The notes under the pieces were generated by a model, which saw only the letters and a program-made list of their open reading frames with translations, was not told the DNA's origin and searched no databases. 42,442 bases of DNA from an uncultured Mediterranea sp. (lineage in GTDB: Bacteria > Bacteroidota > Bacteroidia > Bacteroidales > Bacteroidaceae): the NCBI GenBank assembly GCA_939791845.1, contig CALNEX010000002.1, positions 1 to 42,442 on the forward strand, given 5' to 3'. The translations under genes were made by a program, and so were the position numbers. Position 1 is the stretch's first letter; every line of letters starts with the position of its first letter. Of the stretch, positions 546 through 40,631 are shown one piece after another.

Positions 546-610
546 TTAGTGTTTGGTGTGATTCACCTTGCTTGTCACTTATCATTAACCACTAATCACT
601 AACCACTACG

Positions 611-2741: not shown

Positions 2742-2829
2742 GGCGGTATCTTCGCCCGCGCCCGGCGGTACGCCCAAGCGTGCTTGGCGGTACGCCCGCC
2801 CGTGCTTGGGCGTGCCTCCGCCTAAACGC
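2742..2829. repeat. Degenerate tandem array, 22-nt period, 4 units
   Basis: Units: 2742 GGCGGTATCTTCGCCCGCGCCC; 2764 GGCGGTACGCCCAAGCGTGCTT; 2786 GGCGGTACGCCCGCCCGTGCTT; 2808 GGGCGTGCCTCCGCCTAAACGC. Confidence 0.8.
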
Positions 2830-2956: not shown

Positions 2957-3814
2957 ATGCAGACAACCTATACAATCAATGTGAACGGCACGCTGATGGA
3001 CCTTTCCACACCCCGCGTGATGGGCATTGTCAACGTGACGCCCGATTCCTTCTTCGCGGGAAGCCGCACGCAGACGGAGGACGCCATCGCCCGCCGCGTG
3101 GAGCAACTCATGGCGGAGGGAGCCGATATCCTTGACATTGGCGGCTACTCGTCAAGACCGGGGGCGGCCGATGTATCGCCCGAAGAAGAATGTGAACGCC
3201 TGCGCCTCGGTCTGTCGGTCATCCGCCGGGTGTCTCCCGGGGCCGTGGTGTCCGTCGATACCTTCCGGGCGGACGTGGCGCGGATGTGCGTGGAGGAGTA
3301 TGGCGCGGCCATCATCAACGACATTTCGGGGGGCGAGCTGGACGCGGAGATGTTTCCCACCGTGGCCCGGCTGGGTGTTCCCTATGTCCTGATGCACATG
3401 CAGGGCACGCCGCAACACATGCAGGACGCTCCCCATTATGACGATGTGTTGCGTGATGTCTTCCTCTACTTTGCCCGCAAGGTGCAGCAGCTGCGCGACC
3501 TGGGGGCGAAGGACATCATCCTCGACCCCGGCTTCGGCTTCGGCAAGACGCTGGAGGACAATTACACCCTGCTGGCGCACCTGGACGAGTTTCCTTCCGT
3601 CTTCGGCCTGCCCGTATTGGTCGGCGTGTCGCGCAAGTCGATGATAACCAAGGTGCTGGGCATCACGCCTGCCGAAGCCCTGAACGGCACCAGCGTGCTG
3701 AACACCCTCTGCCTGACGAAAGGCACCTCCATCCTGCGCGTGCACGACGTGCGTCCTGCCGTGGAGGCCGTCCGGCTGGTGCAGGCGGCAGGCCGAAGCG
3801 TCACTAATCACTAA
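2957..3814 (+). CDS. folP: Dihydropteroate synthase
   Basis: MGIVNVTPDSFFAGSR, DIGGYSSRPGA, ILDPGFGFGKT and GVSRKSMI motifs. Confidence 0.96.
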   Translation: MQTTYTINVNGTLMDLSTPRVMGIVNVTPDSFFAGSRTQTEDAIARRVEQLMAEGADILDIGGYSSRPGAADVSPEEECERLRLGLSVIRRVSPGAVVSVDTFRADVARMCVEEYGAAIINDISGGELDAEMFPTVARLGVPYVLMHMQGTPQHMQDAPHYDDVLRDVFLYFARKVQQLRDLGAKDIILDPGFGFGKTLEDNYTLLAHLDEFPSVFGLPVLVGVSRKSMITKVLGITPAEALNGTSVLNTLCLTKGTSILRVHDVRPAVEAVRLVQAAGRSVTNH

Positions 3815-3848
3815 CCCCTAATCACTAATCACTAACCCCTAATCACTA
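3803..3848. repeat. Simple direct repeat of CACTAATCACTAACCCCTAAT
   Basis: cactaatcactaacccctaatcactaatcactaacccctaatcact spans the folP stop codon and the spacer to the next gene. Confidence 0.7.
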
Positions 3849-14487: not shown

Positions 14488-14575
14488 TTCTACATGGCAT
14501 GTAGGACCCTTCTACATGGCATGTAGGACGCTTCTACATGGCATGTGGAACCCCTCTACATGGCATGTAGGAAAA
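14488..14575. repeat. Tandem array, 22-nt period, 4 units, each with an inverted repeat core CTACATG-G-CATGTAG
   Basis: 14488 TTCTACATGGCATGTAGGACCC; 14510 TTCTACATGGCATGTAGGACGC; 14532 TTCTACATGGCATGTGGAACCC; 14554 CTCTACATGGCATGTAGGAAAA. Confidence 0.92.
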
Positions 14576-28921: not shown

Positions 28922-29031
28922 CAGCGTATTCTCCGGGTGTGTCCGTCGGCTCCCGCGAGCGCGTTCCGCGGTGCCGGCGAGCACGTTCGTCGGATACGGC
29001 GAACTTACTCGGCTTATGGCGGCCGGAAGCC
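28922..29031. repeat. Degenerate array, 22-nt period; three alignable units at 28944, 28966, 28988 with weaker flanks
   Basis: CGTCGGCTCCCGCGAGCGCGTT / CCGCGGTGCCGGCGAGCACGTT / CGTCGGATACGGCGAACTTACT. Confidence 0.6.
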
Positions 29032-37402: not shown

Positions 37403-37885
37403 TCATCTCTCTGCCAGCAGCGCAGCATCCACCTCATGCTCCCCGGTCAGGCACCAGGCGTCCGCCTTGGCATCGTATTCGTAGGCCTGGTAGGTCAATC
37501 CCAGGGCATCGGCGGCGTAGACGGCCTTCTCGCGGACATCCGTATAGGCTTGGTCTTGCCGGCTCCAAAGGGCGCACTCCACGGTGACGGCATCGCCATC
37601 GTAGGCATAGTGCAGGGCGTAGGCGGGGCAATACTTGGCGGAGACGGCGTCCCAGCGAAGGATTTCCTTCGTCAAAAGTCTGCATTGGCCGTCGTAGGTG
37701 CTGCGGTATTGCAGGTGGTGGCGGAGATATTGGCCGTCCGCGGACACCTTATATATATACTGCATCTCGGTGCCCGTGCTGTCCGTCTCCGTGTTGTAGG
37801 CGAAGCGTTGCGTGGCATTCCCTGCGAAAGCGTTGTTGAACAATCCGGTGGCTGCAATGACAAATGACATGACTAAAGTCTTCAT
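37403..37885 (-). CDS. DUF3836-like secreted protein
   Basis: 160 aa with signal peptide MKTLVMSFVIAATGLFNNAFA; YNTETDSTGTEMQYIYKVSADGQYL resembles DUF3836. Confidence 0.75.
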   Translation of the reverse strand: MKTLVMSFVIAATGLFNNAFAGNATQRFAYNTETDSTGTEMQYIYKVSADGQYLRHHLQYRSTYDGQCRLLTKEILRWDAVSAKYCPAYALHYAYDGDAVTVECALWSRQDQAYTDVREKAVYAADALGLTYQAYEYDAKADAWCLTGEHEVDAALLAER

Positions 37886-37948
37886 AATCGTACTGGTTTT
37901 AATGGGTTATACTATTGTTTTACTTCTTTCTTTGTCCTTTTGACACTG

Positions 37949-37956
37949 CAAAGATA
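37949..37956 (-). promoter_or_regulatory. Predicted -7 element TATCTTTG for the DUF3836 gene
   Basis: Reverse complement of caaagata. Confidence 0.5.
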
Positions 37957-37978
37957 GGGTGGCTTAGGGAGGTGGAAG

Positions 37979-38011
37979 GTTAAGGCTACGTTAAGGTTAG
38001 GTTAATGCTGA
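37979..38011. promoter_or_regulatory. Three 11-nt direct repeats (GTTAAGGCTAC GTTAAGGTTAG GTTAATGCTGA), possible OmpR/PhoB-type operator
   Basis: Exact 11-nt spacing; lies just upstream of the DUF3836 -7 element on the minus strand. Confidence 0.6.
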
Positions 38012-38065
38012 GGAAAACATCCGCGAAAGCCGCCCGAAAAGTTGCCGAAAGCCGGGATGATCTGT

Positions 38066-38191
38066 ATTTCTAGGCTAGAAATACATATTTCCAGCCTAAG
38101 AATGTATATTTCCAGTCTAGAAATATACATTTTCAGCCTAGAAATGAAGTTTTCAAGCGGCTTCGACAAGTTTTCCAAGCGGTTTTAGAAA
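38066..38191. repeat. Tandem array, exact 21-nt period, 6 units, several with inverted repeat core
   Basis: ATTTCTAGGCTAGAAATACAT / ATTTCCAGCCTAAGAATGTAT / ATTTCCAGTCTAGAAATATAC / ATTTTCAGCCTAGAAATGAAG / TTTTCAAGCGGCTTCGACAAG / TTTTCCAAGCGGTTTTAGAAA. Confidence 0.88.
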
Positions 38192-40419
38192 CGAAGAGTC
38201 GCCCTAAACTCGCTATAGCTGCGCCCGTCGCTCCGCACCTCCACCCTGCCGCCGTGCGCCCGCACCACTTGCCACACGAAGTTCAATCCCAAGCCGAAGC
38301 CGGAAGCCCCCGTGGTACGGCTGCCCGATGCCACGCGCTCGAACTTGCCGAAGATGCGTTGCTGTTCACGTAGAGGAATACCGATACCGTTGTCGCGCAC
38401 ACAGATACACATGCTCCCGTCCGCTCCCAGTTCAGCAGAAAGCCGGATGGACACCTCCTCGCGGGAGTACTTGATGGCATTGTCTATCAGGTTGGAAAGC
38501 ACCTCGCGCAGGCAGAAGGCATCGGCATTTGCCAGCAAGTCCTTGTCGCAGGCGATGTCGAAGGAGACGGGCTTCGGAGCCTTCAGGCGGAACTTGGCGG
38601 CCAGGTCTTCCAGCAGCGGGCGCAAAGGGATATCCGTCCGGTGCAGCTCCAGTTCGCCGCGCTCCATCTGCGTCAGGGTGACTACGCGGTTGGAGAGGGT
38701 CAGCAGGTGGTCGCACTCGTCGGTCATGGCTTGGCGGATGCGGACGGCCTTCTCCGAGCCTTCGGGCAGGCGGCCGCTTGACAGAATTTGCGCACCCATC
38801 AGGACGGATTGCAGGGGCGACTTCATGTCGTGTATCATGGAGTAGGTGAAGTCTTCGCGGAATTGCCCCAGCTTGCGCAAACGCCGCCCCACGTACCACA
38901 AACCCACGATGCAAGCCAAGGTCAACAGGGAGATAAGACGCAAGGCCACGAACAGATACCACACCGATTGGAGAATAAAAGTCCCAGGGAAAGGCACGAT
39001 GCCTTCCATCCACCGTGTTCGGTCAGTGGTCACGGCCACGGGCCGAGTAACCATATCCTTCCCAAGGGTGAACAACATACCTGGCCCTTGCCCGATGATG
39101 TTTCCGGCAGTCTGGTCGGACAAGCGGATATGCCCCTCCGGTAACCCCGCCGCCCTCAAACGCACATTGAAAAACGAATCCATCATCACGCTGTCCAGCG
39201 GCACATAGGGAACACCGGCGTCCTTGAAAATCTCCTGATTGTTGTAAGCACGACGGACACGGGCATTTTCCTCCATGTTCATACCGCCCCGCCGGACGAA
39301 CGCCATGCCTATCCAAATGCTGTCCCCCCGCTTCAACAAGGTGTCGGTCTGCCGGTAGCAGAAGTCCGTGGCCGTCCGGGCCCGCGGGTGTTCAGGCAGG
39401 GAGTCTACCAGGTGTTGATAACGGTGGGCGCTTTCGCTCACAAACGCCTCCTCGAAGCAGACTTGCACCTCGTGCGCCATCGCCAGGCGTTGCTCCCGGT
39501 AGATATAGTTGCTCCAAAGAAAAGTCAGTAGCAGAGAGCTGACCAAGGCAAGCCCCAGCCAACAGAGGGAAGAGGCCGGACGGCTCCGATGTGCCCGGGC
39601 ATCCTTCTGCTTGGCGTGCGTCAAGGTTGCTTCCGTGGCGGTCAGCAACCGTTGCGCCGTCTCTCGGGCTTGCGCCCACCGGGCGGCGTCCAAATCATCC
39701 TTCATCCGGCGGACAGGCATTTCCATCTCCTTGGCCTGCCCGTAAAACTCACGCCGCTGCCCGTCGATGGCCGCTTGCTCCCGCTGCAACCTGCGCATAC
39801 GGACGACAAAAGGAATGATGACTGCCAAGGCAAGCAGTAATGTCACCGCATAAAATAAAAGCATCCGCCCCATATATCCCTTATAGTAAGGTTGGCAAAG
39901 CCGTGCCTCCACGGCAATGCCTTTTGCCTCGTGCAGGCTGGCCCTCTCGGAGATGACATATATGCCCGGTGCATGGCCTTCGGACGCATCGGGCACGCAT
40001 TGCAAGGTTTCTCCCGTGCGGGCATTGAACTTTCGGATGCTGACATCGCCCTCCACGCCGTCATAGCGCAGTTCGCTCTCCAACCTCCGGCGCAGGGAGT
40101 CGAGCGACATTTCCGGCTGCCCATAGGCATCTTGCAGGATGGCAGACGTCTGCTGGGAGGTATAGAAGCTGAACAGTTCTTCGTCCTGCAGGTAGAGGGA
40201 ATCGGCAGGCGTATAAATCAGGTGGGTGACGGTGCCGTCGGGATAGGGCAAGGCGTTGACCTGTTCGTCCACCAACGTGTCAAATGCCTTCCGGAAAGCG
40301 GCCTTCAGCGACACATCAGCCTTTTCCTTCAGCGAATGGTAGGCGTATCCGATACCTATGCCTTGGAAGAGGATGACCAACGCGCAGACCGAAAGCAGGA
40401 TTATCTTCTTTGTCTTCAT
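38185..40419 (-). CDS. Membrane sensor histidine kinase
   Basis: H-box FTYSMIHDMKSPLQSVL, N-box LSNLIDNAIKYS, G-boxes VRDNGIGIPLREQQRIFGKFERV and GFGLGLNFV; several TM segments. Start corrected to ATG at 40419 (744 aa). Confidence 0.93.
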   Translation of the reverse strand: MKTKKIILLSVCALVILFQGIGIGYAYHSLKEKADVSLKAAFRKAFDTLVDEQVNALPYPDGTVTHLIYTPADSLYLQDEELFSFYTSQQTSAILQDAYGQPEMSLDSLRRRLESELRYDGVEGDVSIRKFNARTGETLQCVPDASEGHAPGIYVISERASLHEAKGIAVEARLCQPYYKGYMGRMLLFYAVTLLLALAVIIPFVVRMRRLQREQAAIDGQRREFYGQAKEMEMPVRRMKDDLDAARWAQARETAQRLLTATEATLTHAKQKDARAHRSRPASSLCWLGLALVSSLLLTFLWSNYIYREQRLAMAHEVQVCFEEAFVSESAHRYQHLVDSLPEHPRARTATDFCYRQTDTLLKRGDSIWIGMAFVRRGGMNMEENARVRRAYNNQEIFKDAGVPYVPLDSVMMDSFFNVRLRAAGLPEGHIRLSDQTAGNIIGQGPGMLFTLGKDMVTRPVAVTTDRTRWMEGIVPFPGTFILQSVWYLFVALRLISLLTLACIVGLWYVGRRLRKLGQFREDFTYSMIHDMKSPLQSVLMGAQILSSGRLPEGSEKAVRIRQAMTDECDHLLTLSNRVVTLTQMERGELELHRTDIPLRPLLEDLAAKFRLKAPKPVSFDIACDKDLLANADAFCLREVLSNLIDNAIKYSREEVSIRLSAELGADGSMCICVRDNGIGIPLREQQRIFGKFERVASGSRTTGASGFGLGLNFVWQVVRAHGGRVEVRSDGRSYSEFRATLRF

Positions 40420-40443
40420 CGGGTTATTGGGGATTAGCAGGTG

Positions 40444-40451
40444 CAAAGATA
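40444..40451 (-). promoter_or_regulatory. Predicted -7 element TATCTTTG for the histidine kinase
   Basis: Reverse complement of caaagata, about 25 nt upstream of the ATG. Confidence 0.55.
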
Positions 40452-40490
40452 GATAGAAATCGCGGTTCTTATGCTTGTGGATGGGATAAA

Positions 40491-40556
40491 GATACCCGTG
40501 TCTCTGCTTGGAGGTATCTGCGCCCGTGCTCGCGGGTATCGAGGGACACAGGCTCC
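40491..40556. repeat. Weak 22-nt-period repeat, about 3 units
   Basis: GATACCCGTGTCTCTGCTTGGA / GGTATCTGCGCCCGTGCTCGCG / GGTATCGAGGGACACAGGCTCC; GGTATC recurs at 40513 and 40535. Confidence 0.45.
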
Positions 40557-40631
40557 TTTTTCCGGAACTATATGCTTGTCTCCGCGGAATTTTTTCCTTA
40601 TCTTCGCAGGACATTAAGAGAACGTAACCAA

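Follow-up and report, generated by a model that had tools for sequence, protein, structure and literature searches.

An intergenic element of four palindromes at a 21-bp pitch dispersed in genomes of the Bacteroidaceae

Results

The palindrome array beside a sensor histidine kinase gene in a 42,442-nt stretch of DNA from an uncultured Mediterranea sp. (the window) is one copy of a dispersed, directional and symmetric intergenic element with a fixed four-unit core, an exact pitch and vertical persistence at orthologous loci. The element appears to be undescribed; the open-access literature, which was searched by motif as well, yielded no description of it. The draft genome (G000) to which the window belongs, as contig C2, comprises 1.93 Mb and is 63% complete. 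Genes were called with a home-made coding model on draft MAGs, some of the counts given below are pattern-ascertained, and samples outside two species are small.

The Array at the Kinase Locus

Four 17-bp palindromes separated by 4-nt linkers follow one another at an exact 21-nt step from 38066 to 38145 (Table 1). The unit pattern was matched four times against 0.22 expected by chance, and a sequence-agnostic array score was 0.85, whereas 800 kb of Markov sequence gave no score above 0.51. Unit 1 is the perfect palindrome GTATTTCTAG-G-CTAGAAATAC, as had been described in an earlier reading of the sequence alone. That sequence-only reading counted six units at the 21-nt step, of which the last two are only half-sites. 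At positions 5 and 6 the left half-site agrees in 6/8 letters each and the right half-site in 0/8 and 2/8, respectively, and 1/8 and 2/8 palindromic pairs are retained. The TTTTC motif does advance by 21 nt (38150 to 38171), but the AAGCGG core, said to keep the same period, advances by 22 (38155 to 38177). The segment 38147-38163 matches the reverse complement of 38027-38043 at 82% and, as an inverted copy, is assigned to an outer arm. T-tracts of the right arm lie at 38150 and 38171, and the supposed fifth and sixth units fall within this arm. On the basis of the half-site scores, the outer inverted repeat and a profile of 39 copies (below), the six-unit array was dropped. The array beside the kinase gene is the core of a symmetric element of ∼210 bp, in which outer arms flank the four palindromic units to the left and right. 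It had been remarked that simple unit duplication does not explain a change of core sequence without loss of phase. This is correct, for a reason other than the one implied: a fixed core of four palindromes gives way to mirrored arms of half-site T-tracts in 21-bp phase.

Table 1. Arrays, arms, promoter box and genes in the window
Feature	Position	Strand	Sequence or remark
Palindromic unit 1	38066..38082	.	ATTTCTAGGCTAGAAAT
Palindromic unit 2	38087..38103	.	ATTTCCAGCCTAAGAAT
Palindromic unit 3	38108..38124	.	ATTTCCAGTCTAGAAAT
Palindromic unit 4	38129..38145	.	ATTTTCAGCCTAGAAAT
Right arm position	38148..38210	.	Three 21-nt periods, half-site-like; profile of 39 copies and half-site match
Left arm position	38001..38063	.	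A-tract periods mirroring the right arm; profile of 39 copies
Outer inverted repeat, left copy	38027..38043	.	AAGCCGCCCGAAAAGTT
Outer inverted repeat, right copy	38147..38163	.	AAGTTTTCAAGCGGCTT
Sensor histidine kinase gene, upstream	38185..40614	-	HATPase_c; HisKA slightly under cut-off
Downstream gene, DUF3836 family (PF12930)	37403..37885	-	
Outward -7 promoter box of the DUF3836 gene	37949..37956	-	TATCTTTG; 107 bp from array edge
Second window array, four palindromes at 22 bp	14488..14572	.	TCTACATGGCATGTAGG; other family of the broader class

The TTA at 38185-38187 is the kinase stop codon, as previously read, and together with the last codons of the gene it overlaps the right arm. The implied tie between array and stop codon is incidental, because in Candidatus Bacteroides merdigallinarum the corresponding element lies ∼120 nt past the kinase stop. 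The spacer is 81 nt shorter in the window, which places the stop codon inside the arm. The distance from the promoter box of the DUF3836 gene to the array is the same in both species. No array was found beside more distant kinase homologs (52-67% identity).

Several other features of the locus were recorded. The open frame of the kinase (809 aa) begins upstream of its likely start, MKTKKIILLS (window 40420-40614), which agrees with the start of the Candidatus B. merdigallinarum ortholog. Upstream of the DUF3836 promoter, at 37977-38009, stand three direct repeats of 11 bp (AGGTTAAGGCT-like) that are kept in Candidatus B. merdigallinarum; their spacing is typical of sites for OmpR/PhoB-type response regulators, and the kinase gene adjoins. 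In an uncultured Bacteroides bin, kinase and array recur at 99% identity on a 43-kb contig (L054; G160:C91:43173-43393). The GltD found elsewhere in the bin has just 69% identity, so this is probably bin contamination; the sequence past unit 4 differs in this copy and may be an insertion-sequence end.

Copy Number and Architecture of the Dispersed Element

A one-unit pattern matched G000 at 52 places, against one for the reversed control. These places make up 14 loci, every one of which has exactly four units at 21 bp with no indel. Among the named genomes scanned, Candidatus B. merdigallinarum has the element at 28 loci: 25 carry four units, one carries three and two carry two. All 15 loci sampled in G187, a genome of another genus, have four units, and a fifth would have been visible. 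At least 53 four-unit arrays are present in that genome, which was searched with a four-unit pattern that would miss shorter copies. Nine additional genomes, belonging to several genera, contributed one locus each, and 8/9 of these loci have four units; one of the eight scored five under a loose threshold, with 5 mismatches at the fifth position, which was not counted. Across loci and species, nearly all copies have four units.

The profile of 39 copies showed ∼210 bp of conservation, with the four units lying between an A-tract left arm and a T-tract right arm. Each arm spans about three periods in the same 21-bp phase as the core and has one A/T-tract half-site per 21 bp. Conservation fades past the arms instead of stopping sharply, and the arms are mirrored (compare the terminal inverted repeats of MITEs). 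Four 17-bp palindromes with a pitch of exactly 21 bp, or two helical turns, and mirrored 63-bp arms make up the element, in all ∼210 bp or 20 turns of the helix. Its copies share a direction, with 131.7 bits when oriented against a null of 123.8 ± 0.2.

Half-site letters vary by species and locus, while palindromy, pitch and copy number are constant. The dominant half-site is ATTTCC in the window species and Candidatus B. merdigallinarum and ATCTCC or ATCTTT in other genomes; a central AG-N-CT is kept across genera. Specific positions are near-invariant inside a species, as judged from the 39-copy profile. A strict two-unit pattern, which is biased by half-site sequence, matched only four of 160 genomes of the genus. 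A relaxed three-unit pattern, for which the control gave no matches, detected the element in 16 of 399 Bacteroidaceae genomes, which represent 7 of 30 genera. The distribution is patchy, with sister species of the same genera often lacking the element.

Orthologous Spacers and the Possibility of Mobility

In the gltB-gltD spacer the units are ATTTCCAG in the window species, ATCTCCAG in Candidatus B. merdigallinarum and AACTTTAG in the sister genome G014, all arranged as 4 × 21. The 84-bp array is free of indels in 7/8 ortholog pairs and differs by one 21-bp step in the other. Two G014 loci have two units and are 42 bp (four turns) shorter, with flanks and promoters conserved. At the DUF3109 and ABC-transporter spacers G014 carries an unrelated array family instead. 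Two ortholog assignments scored as having no array are probably paralog mismatches (spacers of 17 and 28 bp). A regulon under one regulator is disfavored, since four loci of one family in the window species have other half-site types or families in G014.

Part of the evidence would suit a non-autonomous, MITE-like mobile element without host function, whose palindromes and arms are recognized by a transposase and which lands intergenically. We consider this rather unlikely, although it is the nearest rival of the reading that we prefer (see Discussion). It would account for the high copy number together with the patchy distribution, for the directional shared consensus and mirrored arms, for the variants shared by many copies in G139 (such as a third unit ending GGATTT) and for the occupation of all gene orientations in G187. 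On the other hand, the copies are diverged rather than near-identical and stand at orthologous sites in two or three species, and the small sample of orthologous spacers compared showed neither a clean empty site nor a target duplication. The promoter register of the window species and Candidatus B. merdigallinarum (below) is a further point against it. Mobilization by RAYT is unsupported: the Y1/RAYT transposase domain PF01797 is present in G046, G178 and G187 but missing in 7 of the 10 carriers tested, namely G000 (only 63% complete), G068, G014, G139, G110, G196 and G224.

Among described elements, the BrickBuilt MITE of Porphyromonas gingivalis invites comparison. It has 19 dispersed intergenic copies of 23-nt dyad-symmetric tandem repeats with reported promoter activity, in arrays of 1 to 22.8 repeats with a unique leader and tail, and is confined to P. 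gingivalis and P. gulae (PMC4596501). The two share the bacterial order, an intergenic and dispersed location, a similar repeat length with dyad symmetry and segments flanking both sides. In contrast to BrickBuilt, the present element almost always has four units at a pitch of exactly 21 nt, has periodic arms and occurs in several genera. The IS5-like terminal inverted repeat of BrickBuilt, GAGACC...GGTCTC (PMC4596501), is absent from the flank consensus of the 39 copies. REP/BIME sequences are likewise short extragenic palindromes, dispersed and clustered, with several families per genome, and differ in lacking a fixed four-unit architecture; most carriers of the present element are without the Y1 (RAYT) transposase that goes with the GTAG type. 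REP palindromes bear GTAG or CGTC tags, CGTC repeats being listed for some Bacteroidetes (PMC3733652). No such unpaired tag at the palindrome foot, as defined there, was found in the unit and arm consensus of the 39 copies. CRISPR arrays also are tandem, partly palindromic and of fixed spacing, whereas the element has no unique spacers, has 4-nt linkers and is dispersed.

A Broader Class of Palindrome Arrays

Arrays were also sought irrespective of sequence, with a detector whose null scores reached about 0.53 at most; it found 43 in 759 kb of G000 and 29 in 668 kb of G014. Many families are represented; unit counts run from 3 to 7, and most arrays have 3 to 5. When periods from 15 to 45 were scanned, nearly all arrays fell at 21-24 bp; other Bacteroides, in small samples, had mainly 22 bp. 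Palindrome arrays with a pitch of 22 ± 1 bp form a wider class that extends across Bacteroides. The second array of the window belongs to a family, TCTACATGGCATGTAGG, found at two more loci with four units each (C17:2765-2849 and C37:13000-13084).

The multiplicity of unrelated palindrome families, and the orthologous arrays in which every unit has changed in concert, would be expected if slippage bred tandem palindromes and template switching perfected them, with no function at all. Such a mutational by-product is improbable in view of the four-copy rule over several genera, the restriction of pitch to 21-24 bp and the phasing of arms and promoters.

Further arrays and repeats were noted. In the orthologous 23-bp arrays L131:4046-4115 and L215:13181-13227, three of four units show a double complementary change (GTATC/GATAC to GTCAC/GTGAC) and one retains the old form, a concerted change part-way. 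The window array at 14488-14572 directly follows a terminator-like hairpin. Weak 22-bp arrays of GC-rich palindromes (GGCGGTACGCC-like) at window 2764-2809 and 28929-29003 are possibly decayed members of the class, with close relatives at L143:17148 and L136:13625. A nine-unit 21-nt palindrome array, GAATTTCCAANTTRGAAATTC, lies near contig ends in Tannerella sp. MAG Im510_bin93 (L039 and L040), apparently as one element in two orientations. The TCACTAA/TCACTAATCACTAACCCCTAA tandem repeats at window 575-608 and 3801-3848, directly after or between genes, are non-palindromic and outside this class.

Gene Orientation and Promoter Register

Of the 35 copies classified in the window species and Candidatus B. 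merdigallinarum, 16 are flanked by divergent genes and 2 by convergent ones. Outward TAnnTTTG -7 boxes were found on 37/52 sides facing a gene start against 1/22 facing a gene end. At many of the copies between divergent genes these boxes lie beyond the array. In this species pair the boxes lie preferentially some 65, 86, 107 or 128 bp from the array, or at half-steps in between. With orthologs removed (n = 27), the best period was 10.8 bp, and none of 3000 jittered sets matched the peak at any period. The promoter link is strong for these two species and is claimed for them alone, since the register was not seen in G187 (n = 8) and convergent sites are common there (6 convergent, 6 divergent, 3 tandem). 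The other array families gave no promoter register (n = 27, Z = 0.14) and no clear orientation bias.

DNA or RNA

The sequence-only reading had called for folding the 3'-UTR of the kinase mRNA. A single strand of the array does fold far more stably than shuffled sequence (RNA z = -7.3; DNA z = -6.8), as expected of any palindrome array; a role for a 3'-UTR RNA is unsupported by the divergent sites and by the lack of compensatory pairing. Besides the stable fold, 3'-UTR hairpins or an attenuator of the kinase mRNA could explain why the non-Watson-Crick pairs inside an array are mostly G.T and on one strand, usually the sense strand at tandem sites. We nevertheless regard such an RNA element as highly improbable. 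Copies between divergent genes with outward promoters beyond the array would escape transcription, and this placement favors action at the DNA level. T-A pairs are not in excess over independence, other families have no sense bias, and the polarity of the G.T pairs follows from the shared direction of the element copies. RNA stems are accordingly disfavored by the covariation and polarity tests. No Rfam model matched in the window, and no intrinsic terminator (G+C-rich stem with T-run) was found at 37850-38300. Replication-strand mutation bias is unsupported as the cause of the polarity, which flips inside contigs and ignores GC skew. A coding heptad repeat (21 nt equaling 7 codons, with short frames such as LEIYISR on both strands) was set aside because first and second codon positions vary too and the predicted frames are short.

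The strong folding, the joint change of half-sites over all units with their complementary partners and the rarity of convergent sites in the window species pair would also be compatible with a structural role of the DNA, in which cruciforms or hairpins absorb negative supercoiling between transcription units and pairing is kept rather than sequence. This is unlikely by a wide measure, given the near-invariant positions within species, the AG-N-CT core kept across genera, the lack of a compensatory excess in palindrome pairs within the family and the common convergent sites of G187. Moreover, a cruciform needs no exact 21-bp pitch.

Discussion

Our best reading, put forward tentatively and at somewhat less than even probability, is that the dispersed DNA element is a platform for a multimeric sequence-specific protein. 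In its favor are the four-unit rule, the phased arms, the near absence of indels within the array, the two-unit G014 loci with conserved flanks and promoters, the outward boxes and their helical period, the scarcity of convergent sites in the species pair, the half-sites dominant in each species and the shared direction of the copies. Multi-operator and nucleoid-protein sites, such as the lambda operators and parS clusters, have several palindromes about two helical turns apart. The element resembles them in this spacing and differs in almost always having four palindromes, in its tens of copies by unrelated genes and in half-sites that drift between species. On the platform reading, one dimer would bind each palindrome, all on one face of the helix, and weaker protein contacts would be made on the half-sites of the arms. 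In the species pair such a complex would be placed immediately upstream of promoters, in helical register with them, where it might tune or insulate neighboring transcription units. Copies may have spread by copying of a directional ancestor and then been kept in place. Against a platform stand the missing register in G187 and other families and the frequent convergent sites of G187. A single protein would explain the data poorly, because half-sites differ between loci of one genome (gltB-gltD; Candidatus B. merdigallinarum and G014). The platform and mobile-element readings are compatible, since a copied element may have turned into a binding platform.

A bolder and more doubtful proposal is that the Bacteroidaceae possess a large undescribed system of intergenic palindrome arrays of many sequence families, pitched at two helical turns, in which a four-dimer complex would mark transcription-unit boundaries and set the helical register of promoters, and in which palindromes could be rewritten, or exchanged in place for those of another family, with the architecture kept. 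If the findings on the element hold, a common group of gut bacteria has an unannotated chromosomal element in which the number of units (four) and the pitch (21 bp) are fixed and the relation to promoters can be measured. The 22 ± 1-bp arrays of different sequence at the same spacers in sister species separate architecture from sequence in a testable way. The element would suggest a novel protein, either DNA-binding or a transposase, and would inform how the regulatory regions of Bacteroides are built.
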